Shown: positions 2-12,709 of the stretch, piece after piece
Numbering within the stretch: position 1 is the stretch's first letter
Layout: each line of letters opens with the position of its first letter
Assembly (NCBI RefSeq): GCF_030347395.1
Contig: NZ_CP128170.1
Location: 620,001-684,000 of the forward strand
Length of the DNA: 64,000 bases
Source: Microbacterium sp. ET2
GTDB taxonomy: Bacteria > Actinomycetota > Actinomycetes > Actinomycetales > Microbacteriaceae
Direction of reading: 5' to 3'
The notes under the pieces: generated by a model
Seen by the model: the letters and a program-made list of their open reading frames with translations, nothing else
Told to the model about the DNA's origin: nothing
The model's database searches: none
Position numbers and translations under genes: made by a program

Positions 2-1692
<1,691 letters not shown>

Positions 1693-1696
<4 letters not shown>

Positions 1697-2628
1697 CGGC
1701 CGACACGGTCTGGGCCGCGGGCGGCGTCGTCTGGCGCCTGGTGGAGGGGAAGCTCCGGATCCTCCTCATCCATCGCACGAAGTATCGCGACGTCACGCTG
1801 CCGAAGGGCAAGGTCGACCCGGGAGAGACCCTCCCCGAAACGGCCGTGCGCGAGATCCACGAGGAGACCGGGATCAAGGTGAGCCTCGGCGCACCCGTCG
1901 GGGTGTCCCGCTACCACCTGCCGAGCAAACGCGAGAAGGTCGTGCACTACTGGGCGGCCGAGGCGACCGAGACGGCCATCCGCACCTCCTCGTTCGTGCC
2001 CAACCGTGAGATCGCGGCCCTGGAGTGGCGGTCCCCGAAGAAGGCGCTGAAGCTGCTCAGCTACCCGGTCGACGTCGACATCCTCGAGCGGTTCCTGGCC
2101 CTCCGCGAAGGCGATCCGCCCCGGACCTTCCCGGTCGTCGTCCTCCGCCACGGAAAAGCCGTCGGGCGCGAGGATTGGGAGGGAAAGGACACCGACCGCC
2201 CGCTGGCCGTCCGCGGCAAGCGGCAGGCGTCGGCGCTCGTCGGCCAGCTGCAGGCCTTCGGTGTGCGACAGGTGCTCTCCAGTCCCGCCGTGCGCTGCGT
2301 GAAGACGGTCGCCCCCTTCGCCGCCGCTGCCGGTCGAAAGGTGGAGTTCTGTCGCAACATCAGCGAGGACGCCTGGGACGAGGGGTCGGCCGACGTGCGA
2401 AGGGTGATCGGGGAGCGGGTGCGCGGCCGGAAGCCCGTCGTGCTCGTCAGCCACCGCCCGGTGCTCCCCACGATCCTCAGTGAGGTCGTGCTGGCGACGG
2501 GGACGCTCCCGGGGATGCTGGCCAAGACACCGGCCCTCGAGCCGGCGGGGTACGCCGTGCTCCACGTCTCCGCCGACGCACCGGGCTCCGGTCTTCTCTC
2601 GATCGAGACCTTCACGCCCGCGCTGTGA
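1693..2628 (+). CDS. mutT1: MutT1-type Nudix hydrolase fused to a histidine phosphatase domain
   Basis: A 311-residue two-domain protein. Residues about 5-130 are a Nudix domain with a full Nudix box ([20 protein letters not shown] at its core). Residues about 150-311 are a histidine phosphatase (phosphoglycerate mutase-like) domain opening with [11 protein letters not shown] and carrying a later VSHRP histidine. Mycobacterial MutT1 has this architecture and hydrolyses 8-oxo-GTP, 8-oxo-dGTP and diadenosine polyphosphates; that activity is inferred here. The start is the ATG that overlaps the ppk1 stop (ATGA). Open frame continues upstream on the same strand but there it is only the alternate frame of ppk1. 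The chosen start begins immediately before the Nudix fold ([16 protein letters not shown]). Confidence 0.92.
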
Positions 2629-2644
2629 GCGGACGGCCGGCACG

Positions 2645-3238
2645 GTGAGCGCACAGTCGCGGGCGCCTCATCCGCCTGGGTTCGCCATCGACTGGGCGGA
2701 GGTAGGTGAGGGGATGCCACGGCGCGACGTCGCCTGGACCCTCATCGCCGGGCTCGCAGGCAACCCCGCCGACCTTCGCATCCGTAACCCGTGCCCGCGG
2801 TGCGGCGGACCGCACGGACCGGTGGTGCTGGAAGGCACACGGCTTCGAGGCTCCGTGGCGTACGCCGGACGGATCGCGGTCGCTGCCGTCGCCTTCCAGG
2901 CGGGGGTCATCGGATTCGGAATCGATGCCGAGTCGCGGGTCGATGCCGCGCGCGACAGCGCCGGGTGGGAGGGCGTGCCGCGCCCTGGGCGGCACGGCAC
3001 CGTGCGCGAGTGGACCCGGATCGAGGCCGCGCTGAAAGCCGACGGTCGAGGCCTGGGGGCCGACCCGGCAGACGTGGTCATCCACGATGTGTCGACCGGC
3101 GTCTGGCGGGCCCTGCTCCCCCGCCGCACGAGCGCCGCCGAGGGGTGGGATGTCGACGCATCCCCCGATCTCGTCGTGAGCGCGGCGATCCTCCGTCAAC
3201 CGAGCGGCGGGAGTTCGGCGCCGTCGATCCAGCGGTGA
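2645..3238 (+). CDS. Degenerate 4'-phosphopantetheinyl transferase-like protein
   Basis: A 197-residue protein starting at GTG, 16 bp after the MutT1-like gene. It follows the Sfp-type order of motifs: NPCPRCGGPHG near residue 45, then GSVAYAG, then GFGIDAE (the D and E expected to bind Mg), then EWTRIEAALKADGRGL. The glutamate and the lysine four residues later that match Sfp E151 and K155 are present. The lysine just before that glutamate is isoleucine, and the usual SHS/SHT segment is AYA, so two CoA-contacting positions have changed. It is also shorter than most Sfp enzymes. It runs convergently into the M1 peptidase gene (43 bp 3' overlap) beside a synthetase whose carrier domain needs phosphopantetheine, so it may serve that enzyme. 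Whether it is active is uncertain. Confidence 0.68.
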   Translation: MSAQSRAPHPPGFAIDWAEVGEGMPRRDVAWTLIAGLAGNPADLRIRNPCPRCGGPHGPVVLEGTRLRGSVAYAGRIAVAAVAFQAGVIGFGIDAESRVDAARDSAGWEGVPRPGRHGTVREWTRIEAALKADGRGLGADPADVVIHDVSTGVWRALLPRRTSAAEGWDVDASPDLVVSAAILRQPSGGSSAPSIQR

Positions 3239-4482
3239 ACAAGCGCCTCCGCCGCGGACCCGAAGGTCTCTGCGACCGCGAGGCGGAAGTCGTCGGTTCC
3301 GACGAGCTGGTGGCGGTGCGCCGTGGTCCAGCGCCGCAGGAACCCGAAGAACGCCTCGTCCCCGACAGCCAGACGCAGCGCATGCAGCGTCAGCGCGCCG
3401 CGCTTGTAGACGCGGTCATCGAACATCGCCTTCGGACCGGGGTCGGAGAGGATGAGATCGGCCGGCTCTGCCGCCACCCGCTCCCAATGCGCGGCGGCAT
3501 GGGCGGCGGCGATCGCACCGCCCGAACGCTCCGACCACAGCCACTCGGCGTAGCAGGCGAACCCCTCGTTCAGCCAGATGTCCTGCCAGTCACGGATGCC
3601 TACGCTGTTTCCCACCCACTGGTGGGCGAGCTCGTGCGCGATGAGCCGCTCGAAGGACGGTGCGAGGTGGTTGACGCCGAAGAGCGCCATCCCCTGCGCT
3701 TCGAGCGGGATCTCCAGGACGTCGGGGGTGACGACCATCGTGCAGCGTTCCTGCGGATAGGGGCCGAAGATGTCCTCGAAGACCGCCATCATCCGCGGGA
3801 GCGGAGCGAAAGCCTGCGCGGCCGGTCCCGCGAGTTCGGGCGGGTGGACGAGCTCCGCTGCCACCCCCGGAATACTCACCTCAGCGATCGTGAAGCGTCC
3901 GACGTGCGCAGCCACGAGGTAGGTCGCCGTCGGCGCGCGCAGCTCGAAGGTGCGTGATTCGAGCCGGCCACGACGGCGGACGTCCACCGGCACCCCCGTC
4001 GCGATGGCGCGGTAAGGGGCGTCCGTCGCAAGGGTCACGCGGTAGGTGGCCCGATCGTCGGGGCGGTCGTTGCACGGGAACCAGGTCGGTGCGCCCGTCG
4101 GCTGAGCGGCCACGAGGGCGCCGTCGTCGAGCTCCTCCCACCCGAGCGTCCCCCACGGGCTTCGCCGTGGCCGCGGGGTGCCGGAGTAGGTCACGTCGAT
4201 GGAGAACCGCTCCCCCGGCTGCAGAGGCGTCGGAAGGGTGATGTGGACGCCCCGCGCATCGTGCCGGAAGATGACGGGGTCGCCGTCCACCCGGATCGCG
4301 CTGGCGCGCAGGCCGACCAGGTCCAGACGGACGCGTCCGGTGGGGAGGGCCATGACCGCGTGCAGCAGCGCCCGCCCGTCGAGGCGGTTGGTACGCACGC
4401 GGTACGTCAGGTCGAGCGTGTACGACTCGACGTCGAAGGTAGGGTCCCCGCTGTCGGGGGTGTAGGCCGAGACCGGGGTCAC
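3196..4482 (-). CDS. M1-family zinc metallopeptidase, partner of the Pls-like synthetase
   Basis: A 428-residue gluzincin with HELAHQWVGN (H283, E284, H287) and the third zinc ligand in WLNEGFACYAE (E306). An N-terminal beta-domain (about 1-200) precedes the catalytic domain. There is no signal peptide or membrane segment, so it is probably cytosolic. The usual GAMEN exopeptidase motif is absent; the equivalent region reads LEAQGMALFG. It starts at GTG 13 bp after the stop of the synthetase gene on the same strand, so the two almost certainly share a message. From memory, the epsilon-poly-lysine-degrading enzyme of Streptomyces albulus is also an M1-type zinc aminopeptidase, so a role in trimming or detoxifying the polymer is a reasonable inference. 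The family call is firm; the substrate is not known. Confidence 0.9.
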   Translation of the reverse strand: MTPVSAYTPDSGDPTFDVESYTLDLTYRVRTNRLDGRALLHAVMALPTGRVRLDLVGLRASAIRVDGDPVIFRHDARGVHITLPTPLQPGERFSIDVTYSGTPRPRRSPWGTLGWEELDDGALVAAQPTGAPTWFPCNDRPDDRATYRVTLATDAPYRAIATGVPVDVRRRGRLESRTFELRAPTATYLVAAHVGRFTIAEVSIPGVAAELVHPPELAGPAAQAFAPLPRMMAVFEDIFGPYPQERCTMVVTPDVLEIPLEAQGMALFGVNHLAPSFERLIAHELAHQWVGNSVGIRDWQDIWLNEGFACYAEWLWSERSGGAIAAAHAAAHWERVAAEPADLILSDPGPKAMFDDRVYKRGALTLHALRLAVGDEAFFGFLRRWTTAHRHQLVGTDDFRLAVAETFGSAAEALVHRWIDGAELPPLG

Positions 4483-4495
4483 GAGATCGAGGACG

Positions 4496-7400
4496 TCACG
4501 AGGTCGACTGATAGGCGCGCACCTTCACCGCGCGCCACGGGCCGATCGGGTTGCCGCTCCAGCGTGACCCGACGGGCACCGCCTCGCCGCGCATCACCAG
4601 CGACGCCGGGCCCACCGTCGCGTGCGAGCCGATGACCGCGCCGGGAAGGATGACGCTGTGCGGTCCGAGCGTGGCTCCGGGTTCCAGGGTGACGGTGTCC
4701 ATACTCATGATTCGATCATGGAACAGGTGTGTCTGCACGACGCACCCGCGATTGACCGTGCTGCCGTCGCCGAGGGTGACGAGGTCGGGTTCGGGGAGCC
4801 AGTAGCTCTCGCACCACACTCCCCGGCCGATGCGGGCTCCGAGGGTGCGCAGCCACACGGCCAGAGCCGGGGTGCCGGCGGCTGCTCGGGCGAACCAGGG
4901 TGCGGCGACCATCTCGGTGAACGTGTCCGACACCTCGGTGCGCCAGACGAAGCTCGACCACAGCGGAAACTCGCCCGCGCGGATGGGCCCCACGATGAGC
5001 CACTTCGCCGCGGTGGTCACGATCGCCGCCACTGCTCCGGCGGAGAGGAGCACGACGCCCGAGAGCAGCAGGGCCGCGATCGGGGCCGCCTCCCACAGGG
5101 CCGCGAGGACGAACAGGACGCCCAGGCCGATACCGCAGGTGACGACGACGGGCAGGAAGCGGCACAGTTCCCACAGCGTCCGCGCGACGCGGAGCCGGGT
5201 CGGCGGGTGGTAGGTGCGCGCGTCGTCTCCGTCGGCGGTGACCCGTCGCAGGCGCACCGCGGGCGAGCCGAGCCACGACGAGCCGGCCTTCGCCTTTCGC
5301 GGCGCGGAGGACAGCACCGCGACGAGGCCGTCGCGGGGCACACGGTGTCCGGGCGCGGCCATTCCGGAGTTGCCCAGGAACGCGCGCTTGCCGATGCGCA
5401 CCGCGCCGATCCGCACCCAGCCGCGCCGAAGCTCGTAGGAGGCCACCATCGTGTCGTCGGCGAGGAAAGCCCCGTCTTCGATGCGGGTCATCGACGGCAG
5501 GAGCAGCACGGTCGACGCCTCGACATCCTTTCCGACCTCGGCGCCGAGAAGCCGCAGCCAGACCGGGGTGAACAGGCTCGAGTAGAGCGGGAAGAGGATC
5601 GTGCGCGCAGAATCCAGCAGCCGCTCGATGGTCCAGGCGCGCCATCCGTTCGCGCTTCGCACCGGGAAGGTGCCCTCGCGAAGGCCCGAGGACAGCAGGC
5701 GCACGGCGACGACCACGGCGGCGGCGAAGACGACACCGGCGACGAGGACTCCCGGAACGAGCAGGGCGAGCGCGCCCAGGAGGGCGGCGCCGAGGTCATC
5801 CGCCCCCCGGATCCCTGCGGCCACGACGAGTCCTCCGACGGCGAAGGCGACGACCGGGAGGAGGGCGAGCAGAACGGATGACGCGGCATAGGCCCAGAGC
5901 CATCGATGCGGCGCGGGTGCGCGTTCGGCCGGCCACCCCGAGGCGACCTCCCCCACCCGGACGGCGGGAGACCCGGCCCACGATTGGTCGGCCTTGACAC
6001 GCCCGAACACCGCCGATCCGGGCGCGATCTCCGCGCGCTGACCGATGCGCGTTCCGGGCGCAAGCGTCGATCGCGTGCCCACCGTGGCATCGGCCCCGAT
6101 GCGCACCCGGCCGATGCGCACGACGTCGCCGTCGATCCATGTGCCGCTGAGGTCCACCTCCGGCTCGATCGCCGCGCCGTCGCCGACCTCGAGCAGGCCG
6201 GTGATGGGCGGGAGGGTGTGCAGATCGACGCCTCGGCCCACCTTGGCCCCGAGCGCCCGGGCGTAGTAGACCACCCAGGGCGCACCGGCGAGCCCGACAG
6301 CGTCGACCTGGTCGGCGATCTGCTCGGCGAGCCAGAGGCGCAGGTGCACGCCACCCCCGCGGGGATAGTCCCCGGGCTTCACGCCCGAGAGCAGAAGCCG
6401 GGCCGCCGTCGCGGCGATCGCCATGCGACCGAACGGTGTGGCGAAGATCACCAGACCCCCGAGGAGCACGGGCCACGGCGCGGTCGGGAGGACCTCGAAG
6501 CCCGGCACCTGCTGCAGGAGCGCCGCGGCGGTGAGGAGGTACAGCAGCCATCGGATGCCGCTCAGCACGAACAGCGGCGCCGCCAGGAGCGTCTGGGCCC
6601 ACTGCGTGCGGCGCGGGGTCGGCAACGGGCGGCGGAAGTCGGTGCGGGCATCCTCGGCGACGGCCCCGACGGCCTTCGCCATCGCGCCGAGCCGCGGCAC
6701 ATCGTAGATGTCGGCGACGGAGAACTCGGGCACCCGGGCTCGCAGCCTCGACACCAGCTGAGCCGCAGCGAGCGACCCGCCGCCCAGGTCGAAGAAGTCC
6801 GCCTCCCGGTCGGCCACCGGCATCCCGAGCACCGCCTGCCACTGGGCGGCCAGCCACACCTCATCGGGCGACAGGTCGCTCACATCCAGCTCTACCCCGG
6901 GAAGCGGCCAGGGCAGCGCGGCGCGGTCGACCTTGCCCGAGGTGCGCACCGGGAGGTCGTCGACGACGGCGAGGAGCGGCACGAGCGCGGCGGGAAGGCG
7001 CTCGGCGAGGAAGGCGCGCGCTGCTCCCCGATCCAGATCCGCGGGGGCGACGAGGTAGCCGACGAGGAGGGGGACGCCGGCGTCGCTGGTGCGCACGGCC
7101 GCTGCAGCGGCGGCGACGCCGGGGATGTCCTGCAGCGCCGCCTCCACCTCTCCGAGCTCGATGCGCCTGCCGCCCACCTTCACCTGGTCGTCGGCGCGAC
7201 CGACGAACACCAGGCCCTCGGGGTCGTATCGCACGAGGTCGCCCGACCGATACGCCCGCTCCCACTCCAACTGCGGAAAGGGAGCGTACTTCTCGGCGTC
7301 CTTGGCCGGGTCGAGATAGCGGGCGAGGCCGACACCCCCGATGATGAGCTCGCCGATCTCGCCCGGCGCAACCCGCATGCCATCGGCGTCCACGACCGCG

Positions 7401-8461
7401 AGCGCCCAGCCGTCCAGGGGCAGACCGATACGCACCGGTCCGGGACCTCCGAGCGGCGCAGCGCACGCGACGACGGTCGCCTCGGTGGGGCCGTAGGTGT
7501 TCCACACCTCGCGACCCTCCACCGACAGCCGCGCAGCGAGCTCGGGCGGGCAGGCCTCGCCGCCGAAGATCAGCAGACGCACGCTTTCCAGCGCATCCTG
7601 CGGCCACATCGCCGCGAGAGTGGGGACGGTCGAGACCACGGTGATCCCCTGCCGGATGAGCCAGGGCGCGAGATCCTCACCCGACCGCACGAGCGCCCGC
7701 GGCGCGGGAACCAGGCACGCACCGTGTCGCCACGCGAGCCACATCTCCTCGCAGGAGGCGTCGAAAGCCACGGACAGTCCTGCCAGCACGCGGTCGGCGG
7801 GGCCGAGCGGCGCGTCCTGCAGGAACAGTCGCGCCTCGGCGTCGACGAAGGCGGCAGCCGACCGGTGTGTGACGGCGACGCCCTTCGGCACGCCCGTCGA
7901 TCCGGAGGTGAAGATGATCCACGCGTCGTCGTCGGGAGTGGGGGGCGTGAGCGCGGCGAGGGTGGCGGTGTCGGTCGGCACGGAGGGGGCGCGCGCCTCG
8001 TCGGGAGCGGATGTGGATGCTGCGGCGCCACCCGCGACGAAGACGAGACCATCGGTGAGGATCCCCGCGACCTGCGCCTCGCCGAAGACCAGCCGCGCCC
8101 GCTCGTCCGGGTCGTCGGCGTCGACCGGCACGTACGCGGCGCCGGCGGCGAGGATCCCGAGGATCGCCAGATACAGGTCCTGGGAACCCGACGCGATCCG
8201 AACCCCGATGCGATCGCCGCGCGTCACCCCTGCCTCCTGCAGACGGAGCGCGAGGCGGCCGGCCGCGCGCACCGTCTCGCGGTAGCTGAGCGCGGTCGAG
8301 CCGTCATCCAGCGCCGAGGCCTCGGGGTGCCGTGCGGCGGTCTCGCGGACGATGTCCCAGAGGGTCCGCGGCGGCGCCGCGACGCCGGCACGGTCGAGCT
8401 CGGGCTGGTGACCGCCGGCCGCCTGTCGGGGCGGATTCGCATCCGGTTCGGGGTCGGGCAT
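4496..8461 (-). CDS. Pls/PosA-type membrane-bound nonribosomal peptide synthetase
   Basis: 1321 residues. An adenylation domain (about 30-516) has FTSGSTGVPKG at 184-194, NTYGPTEA at 321-328, YRSGDLVRY at 404-412 and the A10 lysine K510. A carrier domain follows with DFFDLGGGSL (Ser 563). There is no condensation or thioesterase domain. Instead six membrane segments lie in three pairs (about 624-690, 854-923, 1101-1155), each pair followed by a left-handed beta-helix domain of hexapeptide repeats (about 740-838, 970-1072, 1204-1310). This is the layout of epsilon-poly-L-lysine synthetase, where the three tandem C-terminal domains catalyse chain growth. Aligned to PheA, the specificity residues are D234 A235 E238 S277 I298 G300 T322 V330 V331 K510, suggesting a basic amino acid, probably lysine. 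There is no Shine-Dalgarno; a -10 box lies 7 nt before the ATG. The product is likely a cationic isopeptide homopolymer, but it is unproven. Confidence 0.92.
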   Translation of the reverse strand: MPDPEPDANPPRQAAGGHQPELDRAGVAAPPRTLWDIVRETAARHPEASALDDGSTALSYRETVRAAGRLALRLQEAGVTRGDRIGVRIASGSQDLYLAILGILAAGAAYVPVDADDPDERARLVFGEAQVAGILTDGLVFVAGGAAASTSAPDEARAPSVPTDTATLAALTPPTPDDDAWIIFTSGSTGVPKGVAVTHRSAAAFVDAEARLFLQDAPLGPADRVLAGLSVAFDASCEEMWLAWRHGACLVPAPRALVRSGEDLAPWLIRQGITVVSTVPTLAAMWPQDALESVRLLIFGGEACPPELAARLSVEGREVWNTYGPTEATVVACAAPLGGPGPVRIGLPLDGWALAVVDADGMRVAPGEIGELIIGGVGLARYLDPAKDAEKYAPFPQLEWERAYRSGDLVRYDPEGLVFVGRADDQVKVGGRRIELGEVEAALQDIPGVAAAAAAVRTSDAGVPLLVGYLVAPADLDRGAARAFLAERLPAALVPLLAVVDDLPVRTSGKVDRAALPWPLPGVELDVSDLSPDEVWLAAQWQAVLGMPVADREADFFDLGGGSLAAAQLVSRLRARVPEFSVADIYDVPRLGAMAKAVGAVAEDARTDFRRPLPTPRRTQWAQTLLAAPLFVLSGIRWLLYLLTAAALLQQVPGFEVLPTAPWPVLLGGLVIFATPFGRMAIAATAARLLLSGVKPGDYPRGGGVHLRLWLAEQIADQVDAVGLAGAPWVVYYARALGAKVGRGVDLHTLPPITGLLEVGDGAAIEPEVDLSGTWIDGDVVRIGRVRIGADATVGTRSTLAPGTRIGQRAEIAPGSAVFGRVKADQSWAGSPAVRVGEVASGWPAERAPAPHRWLWAYAASSVLLALLPVVAFAVGGLVVAAGIRGADDLGAALLGALALLVPGVLVAGVVFAAAVVVAVRLLSSGLREGTFPVRSANGWRAWTIERLLDSARTILFPLYSSLFTPVWLRLLGAEVGKDVEASTVLLLPSMTRIEDGAFLADDTMVASYELRRGWVRIGAVRIGKRAFLGNSGMAAPGHRVPRDGLVAVLSSAPRKAKAGSSWLGSPAVRLRRVTADGDDARTYHPPTRLRVARTLWELCRFLPVVVTCGIGLGVLFVLAALWEAAPIAALLLSGVVLLSAGAVAAIVTTAAKWLIVGPIRAGEFPLWSSFVWRTEVSDTFTEMVAAPWFARAAAGTPALAVWLRTLGARIGRGVWCESYWLPEPDLVTLGDGSTVNRGCVVQTHLFHDRIMSMDTVTLEPGATLGPHSVILPGAVIGSHATVGPASLVMRGEAVPVGSRWSGNPIGPWRAVKVRAYQSTS

Positions 8462-8516: not shown

Positions 8517-8534
8517 GTTCACCTGCCGTTCACC
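8517..8534 (+). promoter_or_regulatory. PHO box: two PhoP direct-repeat units upstream of pstS
   Basis: Two perfect GTTCACC heptamers (8517-8523 and 8528-8534) are separated by TGCC, giving the 11-bp direct-repeat spacing of the PhoP binding site known from Streptomyces. The box lies about 93 bp before the pstS start. PhoR-PhoP induction of pstSCAB under phosphate limitation is inferred from this and from the known regulon. A palindrome, CTCTTAAGAG (8548-8557), lies just downstream. The divergent Pls-like gene begins only 56 bp to the left. Confidence 0.85.
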
Positions 8535-8626
8535 GTCCCAGCGCACTCTCTTAAGAGTCGATGCTTAGCGTGCCCTGCGGACCCTGCACCGGGCATCCAT
8601 CACCCCGAACCCGAAGGATTCACACA

Positions 8627-9736
8627 GTGAAGATCTCTCGCATTGCCCAGTTGGGCGCCGTCGCGGCTGTCGCGGCGCTCACGCTCACCGCCTGCGCCGC
8701 CAACGAGGGCACCACCTCCGGTGGCGACAGCTCCGACGCACCTGCCGAGTCGAGCCTCTCGGGCAACCTCGTCGGCTCCGGCGCCTCGTCGCAGGAGGTC
8801 GCTGTTCAGGCGTGGTCGGCCGGCTTCCAGGGCGCGAACCCCGACGTGACGGTCAACTACGACCCCTCGGGCTCCGGCGCCGGGCGCGACTCGTTCCAGG
8901 CCGGCGCGGTCGCCTTCGCCGGCTCCGACCGCGCATTCACCGCCGACGAGATCGCCGAGGGCCCCTTCGACGGCTGCGTCGAGGGCACCGGCATCATCGA
9001 GCTCCCCTCCTACATCTCGCCGATCGCCGTCATCTTCAACCTCGAGGGCGTCGAGGAGCTGAACATGGATGCCGCGACCATCGCGGGCATCTTCGCGGGC
9101 ACCATCACCAACTGGAACGACCCGGCCATCGCCGCGCTGAACGAGGGCGTCGAACTCCCCGACCAGGTGATCACTCCCGTCCACCGCGCCGACGACTCGG
9201 GTACCACCGAGAACTTCACCGACTACCTCTACCAGGCCGCGCCCGACGTGTGGACCTACGAGCCCGACGGCGTGTGGCCGCTCGAGTCCGGTGAGGGCGC
9301 GCAGGGCACCTCGGGTGTCGTCGCCGCCGTCGAGGGTGGCGTGGGAACGATCGGCTACGCTGACGCGTCGCGCGCCGAGGGCTTCGGCCAGGTGGCCGTC
9401 CAGGTCGGCGAGGAGTTCGTCGCCTTCTCGCCCGAGGCTGCTGCCGCCATCGTCGACGCCTCGCCCCGCGAGGACGGCCGCACCGACGGCGACCTCGCGA
9501 TCGCCCTGGACCGCACCCCTGACGAGGCCGCTTACCCGATCGTTCTGGTCAGCTACATGATCGCGTGCGAGGAGTACACCGACGCTGCCCAGGCGCCGCT
9601 GGTGAAGGGCTTCCTCGAGTACGTCATCAGCCCCGAGGGCCAGGACGAGGCGGCCGCCGCGGCCGGCTCCGCCCCGATCTCGGACACCCAGCGTGAGAAC
9701 ATGCAGGCCGCGATCGACCTGATCGTCACCGAGTGA
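8627..9736 (+). CDS. pstS: Phosphate ABC transporter substrate-binding lipoprotein PstS
   Basis: A 369-residue periplasmic-type phosphate binder that delivers phosphate to PstCA. It starts at GTG with GAAGGA 8 nt upstream. A lipoprotein signal ends in LTAC (Cys 23), followed by a Gly/Ser-rich linker. The mature part has the PstS phosphate-contact signatures SGNLVGSGASSQ, FAGSDRAFT and RADDSGTTENFTDY. An upstream in-frame ATG at 8561 is rejected because it lies before the ribosome binding site and the lipoprotein signal. First gene of pstSCAB; a strong hairpin follows its stop. Confidence 0.96.
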   Translation: MKISRIAQLGAVAAVAALTLTACAANEGTTSGGDSSDAPAESSLSGNLVGSGASSQEVAVQAWSAGFQGANPDVTVNYDPSGSGAGRDSFQAGAVAFAGSDRAFTADEIAEGPFDGCVEGTGIIELPSYISPIAVIFNLEGVEELNMDAATIAGIFAGTITNWNDPAIAALNEGVELPDQVITPVHRADDSGTTENFTDYLYQAAPDVWTYEPDGVWPLESGEGAQGTSGVVAAVEGGVGTIGYADASRAEGFGQVAVQVGEEFVAFSPEAAAAIVDASPREDGRTDGDLAIALDRTPDEAAYPIVLVSYMIACEEYTDAAQAPLVKGFLEYVISPEGQDEAAAAAGSAPISDTQRENMQAAIDLIVTE

Positions 9737-9742
9737 CACCAT

Positions 9743-9774
9743 GGTGTCCGGCCCGCTTCGGCGGGCCGGACACC
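9743..9774 (+). terminator. Intra-operon hairpin between pstS and pstC
   Basis: A perfect 14-bp stem (GGTGTCCGGCCCGC paired with its complement) closed by a C(UUCG)G tetraloop, starting 6 nt after the pstS stop. No U tract follows. It probably works as a partial terminator or a 3' stabiliser, so that the binding protein is made in excess over the membrane subunits. Confidence 0.8.
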
Positions 9775-9824
9775 GCTTCTCTCCTCGCGAGAGAAAACGA
9801 CCGCACAACCGAGAACAGGATGAG

Positions 9825-10778
9825 ATGACCACTCTGGCTCCTCCGGCGGCTGACAGCCGCGCGAAGCCGAAGCAGCGGCCCGGCGACCGCTGGTTCTCGG
9901 GAACAGCACTCTTCGCCGGCTCGATGATCCTCGTGACCCTCGCCGCGGTCGCGATCTTCCTCATCGTCCAGTCGATCCCGGGCATCACGGCCACGAGCGA
10001 GAACGCCTCCGTCCTCACCTCCACCTTCTGGAATTACGTCTGGCCCCTCGCCTTCGGCACGCTCTGGGCCTCTCTCCTGGCCCTCCTGATGGCCGTCCCC
10101 CTCTCGGTGTCCGTCGCGTTGTTCATCTCGCACTACGCACCTCGGCGCCTGGCTCAGACGCTCGGCTACATCGTCGACCTGCTCGCCGCGGTTCCCTCGG
10201 TCGTCTTCGGTCTCTGGGGCATCCTGGTGCTGGCGCCCGCCGTCCAGCCGGTCTACAGCTGGCTCGTCGACAACGCCGGCTGGTTCCCGCTCTTCGCCGG
10301 CCCCGTCTCGGGCACCGGCCGTACGATCTTCACCGCCGCGATGGTGCTGGCGGTCATGGTGACCCCGATCATCACCGCCATCTGCCGCGAGATCTTCTTG
10401 CAGACCCCGGTCCTCCACGAGGAGGCCGCGCTCGCCCTGGGCGCGACCCGCTGGGAGATGGTGCGCATGGCCGTCTTCCCGTTCGGTCGCTCCGGCATCG
10501 TCTCGGCCTCGATGCTCGGACTCGGGCGCGCGCTCGGTGAGACGATGGCGGTGGCCCTGGTCCTCTCCGCCACCGGTGTGATCACGTTCGAGCTGTTCAC
10601 CTCGGTGAACCCGAGCACGATCCCCGCGAACATCGCCCTCACCTTCCCCGAGGCCTACGGCGTCAACGTGAACGTCCTCATCGCCACCGGCCTGATCCTC
10701 TTCATCGTCACCTTCGCCGTCAACGCACTCGCCCGCTGGATCGTCAGCCGGCGCAAGGAATTCTCGGGAGCGAACTGA
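9825..10778 (+). CDS. pstC: Phosphate ABC transporter permease PstC
   Basis: A 317-residue inner-membrane permease. An N-terminal cytoplasmic tail (about 25 residues) is followed by six hydrophobic segments. The EAA-type coupling loop, which contacts the ATPase, reads EEAALALGATRWEMVRMAVFP, and GLGRALGETMAVALV follows it. The ATG at 9825 is preceded closely by AGGA (9817-9820). Second gene of pstSCAB, one base before pstA. Confidence 0.95.
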   Translation: MTTLAPPAADSRAKPKQRPGDRWFSGTALFAGSMILVTLAAVAIFLIVQSIPGITATSENASVLTSTFWNYVWPLAFGTLWASLLALLMAVPLSVSVALFISHYAPRRLAQTLGYIVDLLAAVPSVVFGLWGILVLAPAVQPVYSWLVDNAGWFPLFAGPVSGTGRTIFTAAMVLAVMVTPIITAICREIFLQTPVLHEEAALALGATRWEMVRMAVFPFGRSGIVSASMLGLGRALGETMAVALVLSATGVITFELFTSVNPSTIPANIALTFPEAYGVNVNVLIATGLILFIVTFAVNALARWIVSRRKEFSGAN

Positions 10779-10779
10779 C

Positions 10780-11901
10780 ATGGCCATCACCTCCGCTCCT
10801 CCCACCGAGTCCGAGTCCGAGTCCCCCTCGGCACGGCAGGTTATCCCCGACCAGCGCATCACGACGGGGCGCCTGCCGAAGTGGGCCCCGTGGGGCATCC
10901 TCGGCGCCAGCATCCTGCTCAGCCTGATCTTCTTCGGCATCCTCGCCCTCGCACCCGAGGGAAGCTTCAACATCGCGGGATTCGCGGTCGTCGCAGCACT
11001 GGCCTACCTTGTCCTCATCACCGTCGTGTCGAGCGTCGTCGAGGGGCGCCGGAAGGCCGTCGACCGCCTCGTCACGGGCGTCGTCACGACCGCGTTCGCG
11101 ATCGCGATGGTGCCCCTCGTGTCGCTGGCGTTCACCGCGGTGGTCAGCGGTGTCGCCGGGATCTCGGCGGAGTTCTTCAGCTCGTCGATGCGCAACGTCG
11201 TCGGTGAGGGAGGCGGTGCGCTCCACGCGATCGTCGGTACGCTTCTGATCACCGGTGCCGCGGCCATCATCTCCATTCCCATCGGGGTCTTCACGGCGAT
11301 CTACCTCGTCGAATACGGAGAGGGCAAGCGTCTGGCGCGAGGAATCACCTTCCTCGTCGACGTCATGACCGGCATCCCCTCGATCGTGGCGGGACTGTTC
11401 GCGTACGCCCTGTTCGCGATCTTCTTCGGACAGGGCATCCGTCTCGGCATCATGGGCGCCATCGCCCTCTCGGTGCTCATGATTCCGGTCGTCGTCCGCT
11501 CCTGCGAGGAGATGCTCCGCCTCGTCCCGAACGAGTTGCGCGAGGCCTCCCTCGCCCTCGGCGTGCCGAAATGGCTGACCATCGCCAAGGTCGTCCTCCC
11601 CACGGCGATCGGCGGCATCGTCACCGGCATCATGCTCTCCATCGCCCGCGTCATCGGCGAGACGGCCCCGCTGCTCATCACGGCGGGGTTCACTACGAGC
11701 ATGAACTACAACCTGTTCGAGGGCCGCATGATGACCCTTCCCGTGTTCACGTACACGCAGTACATGAACCAAGGCATCCCTGCCGAGGCGTACATCGACC
11801 GCGCGTGGGCCGCCGCTCTCGTCCTCATCCTGATCGTCATGGCCCTCAACATCGTCGCCCGCGTCATCGCGAGCTTCTACGCACCCGCCAAGGGCCGCTG
11901 A
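10780..11901 (+). CDS. pstA: Phosphate ABC transporter permease PstA
   Basis: A 373-residue permease partner of PstC. A Ser/Glu-rich cytoplasmic N-terminus ([14 protein letters not shown]) precedes two extra hydrophobic segments and the six-helix permease core. The coupling loop is [21 protein letters not shown], followed by [13 protein letters not shown]. The ATG begins one base after the pstC stop. The protein is longer than enterobacterial PstA because of the N-terminal extension, which is common in actinobacteria. Confidence 0.95.
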
Positions 11902-11929
11902 CCCCTTCTCCACCCGAATCAGAGGAATC

Positions 11930-12709
<780 letters not shown>

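Follow-up and report, generated by a model that had tools for sequence, protein, structure and literature searches.

The 64,000-nucleotide stretch of the Microbacterium sp. ET2 genome analysed here (the window; contig NZ_CP128170.1, positions 620,001 to 684,000 of the forward strand) carries a gene, pls, that very probably encodes an epsilon-poly-L-lysine synthetase, an enzyme whose product is an antimicrobial polymer. Together with a peptidase gene of family M1, it lies inside a phosphate cluster of the order ppk-nudix...pstSCAB, with pls back to back with pstS. The layout of this locus, taken with promoter boxes at pls genes in other genomes, suggests that some Actinomycetota make polylysine as part of their response to phosphate starvation. 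The features of the locus, in window coordinates, are listed below; published work is cited by PMC number, in each case from part of the text.

26..1696, plus strand: polyphosphate kinase gene ppk (profile match); the listed open reading frame (ORF) starts at base 26 and the best match at profile position 184, the N-terminal part probably lying outside the window
1696..2628, plus strand: Nudix/MutT1-like protein (profile match, 192.3 bits, below the model cut-off of 475)
3196..4482, minus strand: M1-family zinc peptidase, 428 aa, with the motif HELAHQW, separated from the pls stop by 13 bases (Pfam and open frame; the position that PldII has in Streptomyces)
4496..8461, minus strand: pls, probable epsilon-poly-L-lysine synthetase of 1321 aa, with an adenylation (A) domain, a carrier (T) domain and tandem membrane/hexapeptide domains (family profile, pocket and tree)
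4544..6598, minus strand: TIGR02353 polymerisation domain of Pls, residues 622-1306, three hydrophobic blocks plus C1-C3 (profile match, hydropathy)
6668..6856, minus strand: carrier domain of Pls, residues 536-598, with a GGGSL phosphopantetheine site (Pfam)
6896..8401, minus strand: A domain of Pls, residues 21-522, code DAESIGTVVK, the code Lys being residue 510 (alignment to 7wew, pocket reading)
8517..8538, plus strand: PHO box of two 11-bp direct repeats, GTTCACCTGCC GTTCACCGTCC, directed at pstS; the pls start codon is 55 bases away
8561..9736, plus strand: pstS, listed from its first ATG (TIGR00975, 215.5 bits, cut-off 205); judged by eye, translation may instead begin at the GTG at 8628, ahead of a lipoprotein-like signal
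9741..12709, plus strand: pstC, pstA and pstB (TIGR02138, TIGR00974 and TIGR00972, each over its cut-off)

Architecture and predicted substrate of the synthetase

The pls gene is a single intact open frame that begins with ATG. Its C-terminal half scores 728.4 bits against TIGR02353, the NCBIfam model of the Pls/PosA family (cut-off 423.1), and aligns with profile positions 2-695 of 695. In the Pfam scan an AMP-binding domain (residues 39-381) and a carrier domain each appear once, together with two stretches of hexapeptide repeats, the better at 786-818, and no condensation or thioesterase family is matched at E<=0.001. This bears out the plan given in a preliminary description of the sequence, which had proposed one A and one carrier domain and neither a condensation nor a thioesterase domain. 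By hydropathy, the C-terminal half contains hydrophobic blocks at 624-684, 854-928 and 1098-1157, which leave room for six paired membrane segments, and the A domain has one short block at 95-115; a beta-helix domain after each membrane pair is predicted from the family model and from published models of PosA (PMC10522769). By analogy with the Streptomyces enzyme, the A domain would adenylate L-lysine and load the carrier domain, and the membrane-embedded C1-C3 region would join the lysines through the epsilon-amino group, with the polymer leaving the cell.

To read the substrate pocket we used an alignment, in which the code residues 234, 235, 238, 277, 298, 300, 322, 330, 331 and 510 are D-A-E-S-I-G-T-V-V-K, the same ten that the preliminary description had read by eye. 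The best solved relative is the epsilon-poly-L-lysine synthase A domain 7wew (E 3.8e-182, 608.5 bits), which is not identical overall and agrees at all ten pocket positions; we take 7wew to be Streptomyces albulus Pls, the structure listing naming only the molecule. All 200 Pls with a readable frame, the window enzyme and 199 relatives, have this code (locus L204 was dropped, no Pls frame being readable there); the sets were drawn by similarity and partly overlap, and are thus not independent. A contrast set of 20 lower-scoring or second-copy regions was chosen to see whether this test can fail: seven carry DAESIGTVVK and one DAESIGTIIK, three carry DFEYNGTVTK, one DFEALSVVTK and two DFECLSVVTK, five have a separate A protein coded DIWQSTA.., and one has no A domain in its stretch. 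Other members of the family differ from the window enzyme. The pocket of PosA is DMEHNGTVSK and that of the epsilon-poly-beta-lysine enzyme DGESISVVNK, and the second position is Ala for lysine and Phe in the poly-diaminopropionate and poly-diaminobutyrate enzymes (Patel and Gulick, PMC10522769); the same paper names the bacitracin lysine module as the closest to PosA.

A tree of the C1-C3 region agrees with the pocket. Among its 50 rows, all 44 with a DAE code fall on one side of a branch with a Shimodaira-Hasegawa-like approximate likelihood ratio test (SH-aLRT) value of 100, the window enzyme standing among Microbacterium, and relatives with non-lysine codes lie outside this group. The tree was made by a quick method, with long outer branches flagged by the program, and in place of named characterised sequences the large-genome relatives L160, L162 and L163 stand in for Streptomyces. 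The comparison of all ten code residues and the C1-C3 phylogeny, both proposed in the preliminary description, thus place the enzyme with Pls, and its predicted product, epsilon-polylysine or a close relative, gains support at the level of sequence. Ornithine, diaminobutyrate, diaminopropionate and beta-lysine were considered as substrates and rejected on code and tree. It is most improbable that the substrate is ornithine, diaminobutyrate or beta-lysine and the polymer another cationic homopolymer: the enzymes for these substrates are of the same family, and their codes likewise begin with Asp and have Glu in third place (PMC10522769), but at position 2 they carry Met (PosA), Phe (poly-diaminopropionate and poly-diaminobutyrate enzymes) or Gly (the poly-beta-lysine enzyme), and the tree groups the window enzyme with the lysine-code rows.

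The contrast set also brought two kinds of outlier to light. In L269, L270, L271, L273 and L284 the relative is split, a TIGR02353 protein lying beside the A protein coded DIWQSTA.., which has Trp rather than Glu at position 3; something other than a plain diamino acid is its probable substrate. The TIGR02353 protein of L273 has three carrier domains, and its frame overlaps that of the A protein. The Pls coded DAESIGTIIK (L277) is an outlier with no M1 match on its 6.5-kb contig.

Linkage to pst and PHO boxes at pls promoters

Relatives were taken from two collections, the best 80 of 586 confirmed stretches by similarity and 120 further loci (40 from the family, 20 mostly from a phylum draw, 20 from the order and 40 of 84 from the own genus, mostly best-scoring). 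Some genomes occur in both (for example L014/L214, L016/L217 and L017/L222), and, given sampling by score, the linkage counts are not unbiased rates. Taking a PstC of >45% identity nearby as the criterion, pls is pst-linked in 34 loci, window included: 33 in the own-genus group, which includes L015, titled Microbacteriaceae bacterium, and one in Arthrobacter (L081). Twenty of the 40 own-genus loci in the 120-locus set are linked. In two further Arthrobacter loci, L052 and L068, ppk-nudix is found close to pls. A strong box toward pstS is present in all 34 linked loci (28.3 bits in the window, with a matrix trained on pstS promoters), and in six of them a weaker box of 6.8-16.2 bits faces pls from 600-950 bases upstream.

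The unlinked pls genes provide the evidence for boxes at pls itself. After removal of near copies, 144 representative unlinked loci were scored from -200 to +10 of the estimated start. A de novo search returned the motif cGTTCACCTgCCGTTCACCTgg with a mixing fraction of 0.54 and a log-likelihood gain of 484, against 72-81 in five shuffles; the run on the reverse complement is not a control because it finds the same motif again, on the opposite strand. With the matrix derived from pstS promoters alone, at least 8 bits are reached in 41 of the 144 pls promoters versus 5 of 621 control upstreams, which belong to other genes at the same loci with ORFs called by our script (Fisher 6e-27); on the turned strand this holds for 4.9% of the 144. 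Counting matches of at least 12/14 positions, 33 of 163 distinct unlinked promoters have a box facing pls and 4 have one facing away, and among 29 distinct linked promoters 0 face pls and 13 face away. As a positive control, 22 of 30 pstS matches in 26 such genomes (several of the matches look like distant paralogs) have a box of this quality facing the gene.

By genus, boxes face pls in 7 of 9 unlinked Rhodococcus loci of the similarity collection, 5 of 6 in Arthrobacter, 4 of 4 in Pseudarthrobacter and in several single Microbacteriaceae genera. Six genomes were picked for a box at pls that is near-exact; they hold 4-11 boxes of this kind each, versus 0-1 for the reversed pattern, with one at pls in every case. 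For five of them pstS was located, and there another such box immediately precedes it; the sixth (G007) was outside the pstS search. The large-genome class relatives L159-L163 are absent from the de novo site list, from which near copies had been removed beforehand, and so the link is not universal.

Three further observations concern the surroundings of pls and the boxes. In Nocardia (L033, L036, L044 and others) a variant 11-bp repeat, GTTTGCC-N4-GGTAACC, recurs upstream of pls. In L009, L011, L017 and others, a co-directional gene just upstream of pls encodes an Ala/Lys/Arg-rich, histone H1-like protein with the SAP/Rho-N-like C-terminal motif LTVAxLRERAR..GYSRL; a strict pattern detects this gene at 22 of 200 loci, all but one of which belong to the own-genus group, overlooks variants such as L178, and has no match in the window. 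A box precedes the H1-like gene, facing the operon, in L178 (16.2 bits) and L014 (12.0). Within the 3.6-Mb genome of the window's strain, GTTCACC-N4-GTTCACC has two exact matches, one of them beside pls-pstS, and one match with a single mismatch; the second exact match (G000:C1:2521933-2521950, L290) adjoins two genes with no obvious tie to phosphate, one for a membrane-like protein of 247 aa and one for a protein of 479 aa.

The adjoining peptidase, known systems and spread of the family

In 198 of 200 collected loci the M1 gene follows pls in the same orientation, at a distance of no more than 1.5 kb, the exceptions being L063, where it is about 2.2 kb away, and L204. The HExxHQW motif is present in 194 of 200 M1 proteins (199 relatives and the window), and the nearest solved relative of the window protein is the zinc metalloprotease 6a8z. 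The Streptomyces peptidase PldII, which is coupled to pls, has a protective role for the producing cell (PMC9223678, PMC8117764); by this analogy the M1 peptidase probably trims or degrades the polymer.

The locus can be set against several known systems. It shares with S. albulus the domain order, the ten-residue pocket and an adjoining peptidase gene, but differs in that pls is set in a ppk-pst phosphate cluster, in the sequence of the A domain outside the pocket, and in a peptidase that shows no export signal. The Pls of Corynebacterium variabile and other coryneforms are of the same kind and layout, with lysine-type pockets reported; a phosphate setting, which the window pls has, is not mentioned in the first half of that paper (PMC8117764). 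The C. variabile gene has been expressed in Streptomyces coelicolor M145 from the S. albulus pls promoter. PosA, the delta-poly-L-ornithine synthetase of Acinetobacter baumannii, belongs to the same family and has the same architecture but forms a single-gene operon, in addition to its different pocket (PMC10522769). On the phosphate side, the Streptomyces supercluster pstSCAB-pptA-nudA-ppk has the same ppk, Nudix gene and pstSCAB, and a PHO box of two 11-nucleotide repeats before pstS, whereas the window has pls-M1 between the Nudix gene and pstS (PMC7866108). The main text of that review of Streptomyces phosphate control does not contain the word 'lysine'.

The enzyme kind is already known, and the window Pls is one more member. 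Scores for TIGR02353 exceed the cut-off in 84 of 149 own-genus genomes, 59 of 150 family genomes, 59 of 198 genomes of the order draw, 24 of 396 of the phylum draw and 1 of 14 control genomes (Corynebacterium glutamicum). Jiang et al. (2021) reported Pls homologs in genera that include Microbacterium, with pockets identical or highly similar to that of Pls (PMC8117764), and non-alpha poly-amino acid (NAPAA) clusters are tabled for Microbacterium strains (PMC10456417) and for Subtercola (PMC10303725). The suggestion in the preliminary description that no producer was described in this family of organisms must accordingly be narrowed: the homologs were on record, but our literature search, judged mostly from listings, found no paper on polylysine chemistry from Microbacteriaceae.

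Proposed phosphate control and what it would mean

We propose that epsilon-polylysine is a phosphate-starvation product, with pls a PhoP/RegX3 target in Rhodococcus, in genera like Arthrobacter and in much of the Microbacteriaceae, and placed in the pst-ppk locus in many Microbacterium; we put the probability of this reading at about 0.5. In a share of the Actinomycetota, the response to phosphate starvation would then include polylysine synthesis or be linked to it. For the wider family, such a link between pls and phosphate is in our estimate an even bet. Our literature search found no description of it, and neither PhoP nor the Pho regulon is described together with pls in the parts of PMC9195005, PMC10012588, PMC9695796 and PMC7866108 that were covered. 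Phosphate-limited cultures have been used for epsilon-polylysine with S. albulus, a practice that agrees with phosphate control though the source gives another reason, the nitrogen content of the polymer (PMC9695796).

Several results weigh against this proposal or against other parts of our reading of the locus. No PHO box faces pls in the window (the best scores -6.7 bits), and because its own promoter lacks one, phosphate control of the window gene is inferred from position and from relatives. The genome of the strain has three box matches with at most one mismatch versus one for a reversed control pattern. In the 14 short-gap pls-pstS loci, window included, no box faces pls and the box there faces pstS, and among 26 unlinked loci of the own-genus group only three (L177, L200 and L201) have a pls-facing box of at least 8 bits within 200 bases. 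Among unlinked loci of the similarity collection, pls-facing boxes are absent from Nocardia (0/15), Mycobacterium and Mycolicibacterium (0/5), Tsukamurella (0/3) and Microbacterium (0/4). Outside the genus, none of the 40 family loci or the 20 order loci shows linkage to pst. A hydrophobic N-terminus is present in 0 of 200 M1 proteins, window included, by a simple test with crude starts (the first ATG or GTG in frame), whereas PldII is described outside the membrane and is modelled with two zinc ions (PMC9223678). Finally, cultures of C. variabile gave neither epsilon-polylysine nor the Pls protein at detectable levels (PMC8117764).

The orientation of the boxes in the own genus gives weight to a purely genomic account, in which pls-M1 arrived by accident at a gap that tolerates insertion within the phosphate cluster, and the enzyme, still a polylysine synthetase, is under no phosphate control here. 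We regard this as a serious contender, slightly short of an even chance. It would explain a box directed only toward pstS and the scarcity of boxes at unlinked own-genus loci, but it has to contend with boxes that face pls in many other genera with no pst nearby, with the three Arthrobacter loci, which are from another family and have pls near ppk-nudix or pst, and with the distant pls-facing boxes in six of the 34 linked loci. The repeats before pls could also be sites of another OmpR-type or similar regulator, such as MtrA or GlnR, whose sites are similar repeats, in which case pls would answer to the state of the cell wall or to nitrogen. The drift of the Nocardia variants from the PHO consensus points this way; the recovery of pls sites by a matrix trained only on pstS promoters, and the occurrence of near-exact boxes at pls in the six chosen genomes, five of them with another before pstS, argue against it, and we consider such a regulator unlikely. 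It is more doubtful still that pls is silent or makes nothing in nature: the negative cultures of C. variabile favour this, but the frame is intact, the pocket and the GGGSL site are kept, and the genome holds two matches to the phosphopantetheinyl transferase (PPTase) family.

Phosphate control, as proposed here, matters more than the enzyme itself, which enlarges by one a well-studied family with a product used to preserve food. Jiang et al. describe how epsilon-polylysine is regulated, and what it does in nature, as less well understood (PMC8117764), and the link to phosphate is directly testable. Should PhoP drive pls, lowering the phosphate supply would be an easy way to wake silent pls genes; our literature search found no report of low phosphate being tried on strains with such genes. 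If the proposal is true, a polycation released at phosphate exhaustion could lyse neighbouring cells, bind to polymers rich in phosphate, for example DNA or teichoic acids, or pair with polyphosphate.

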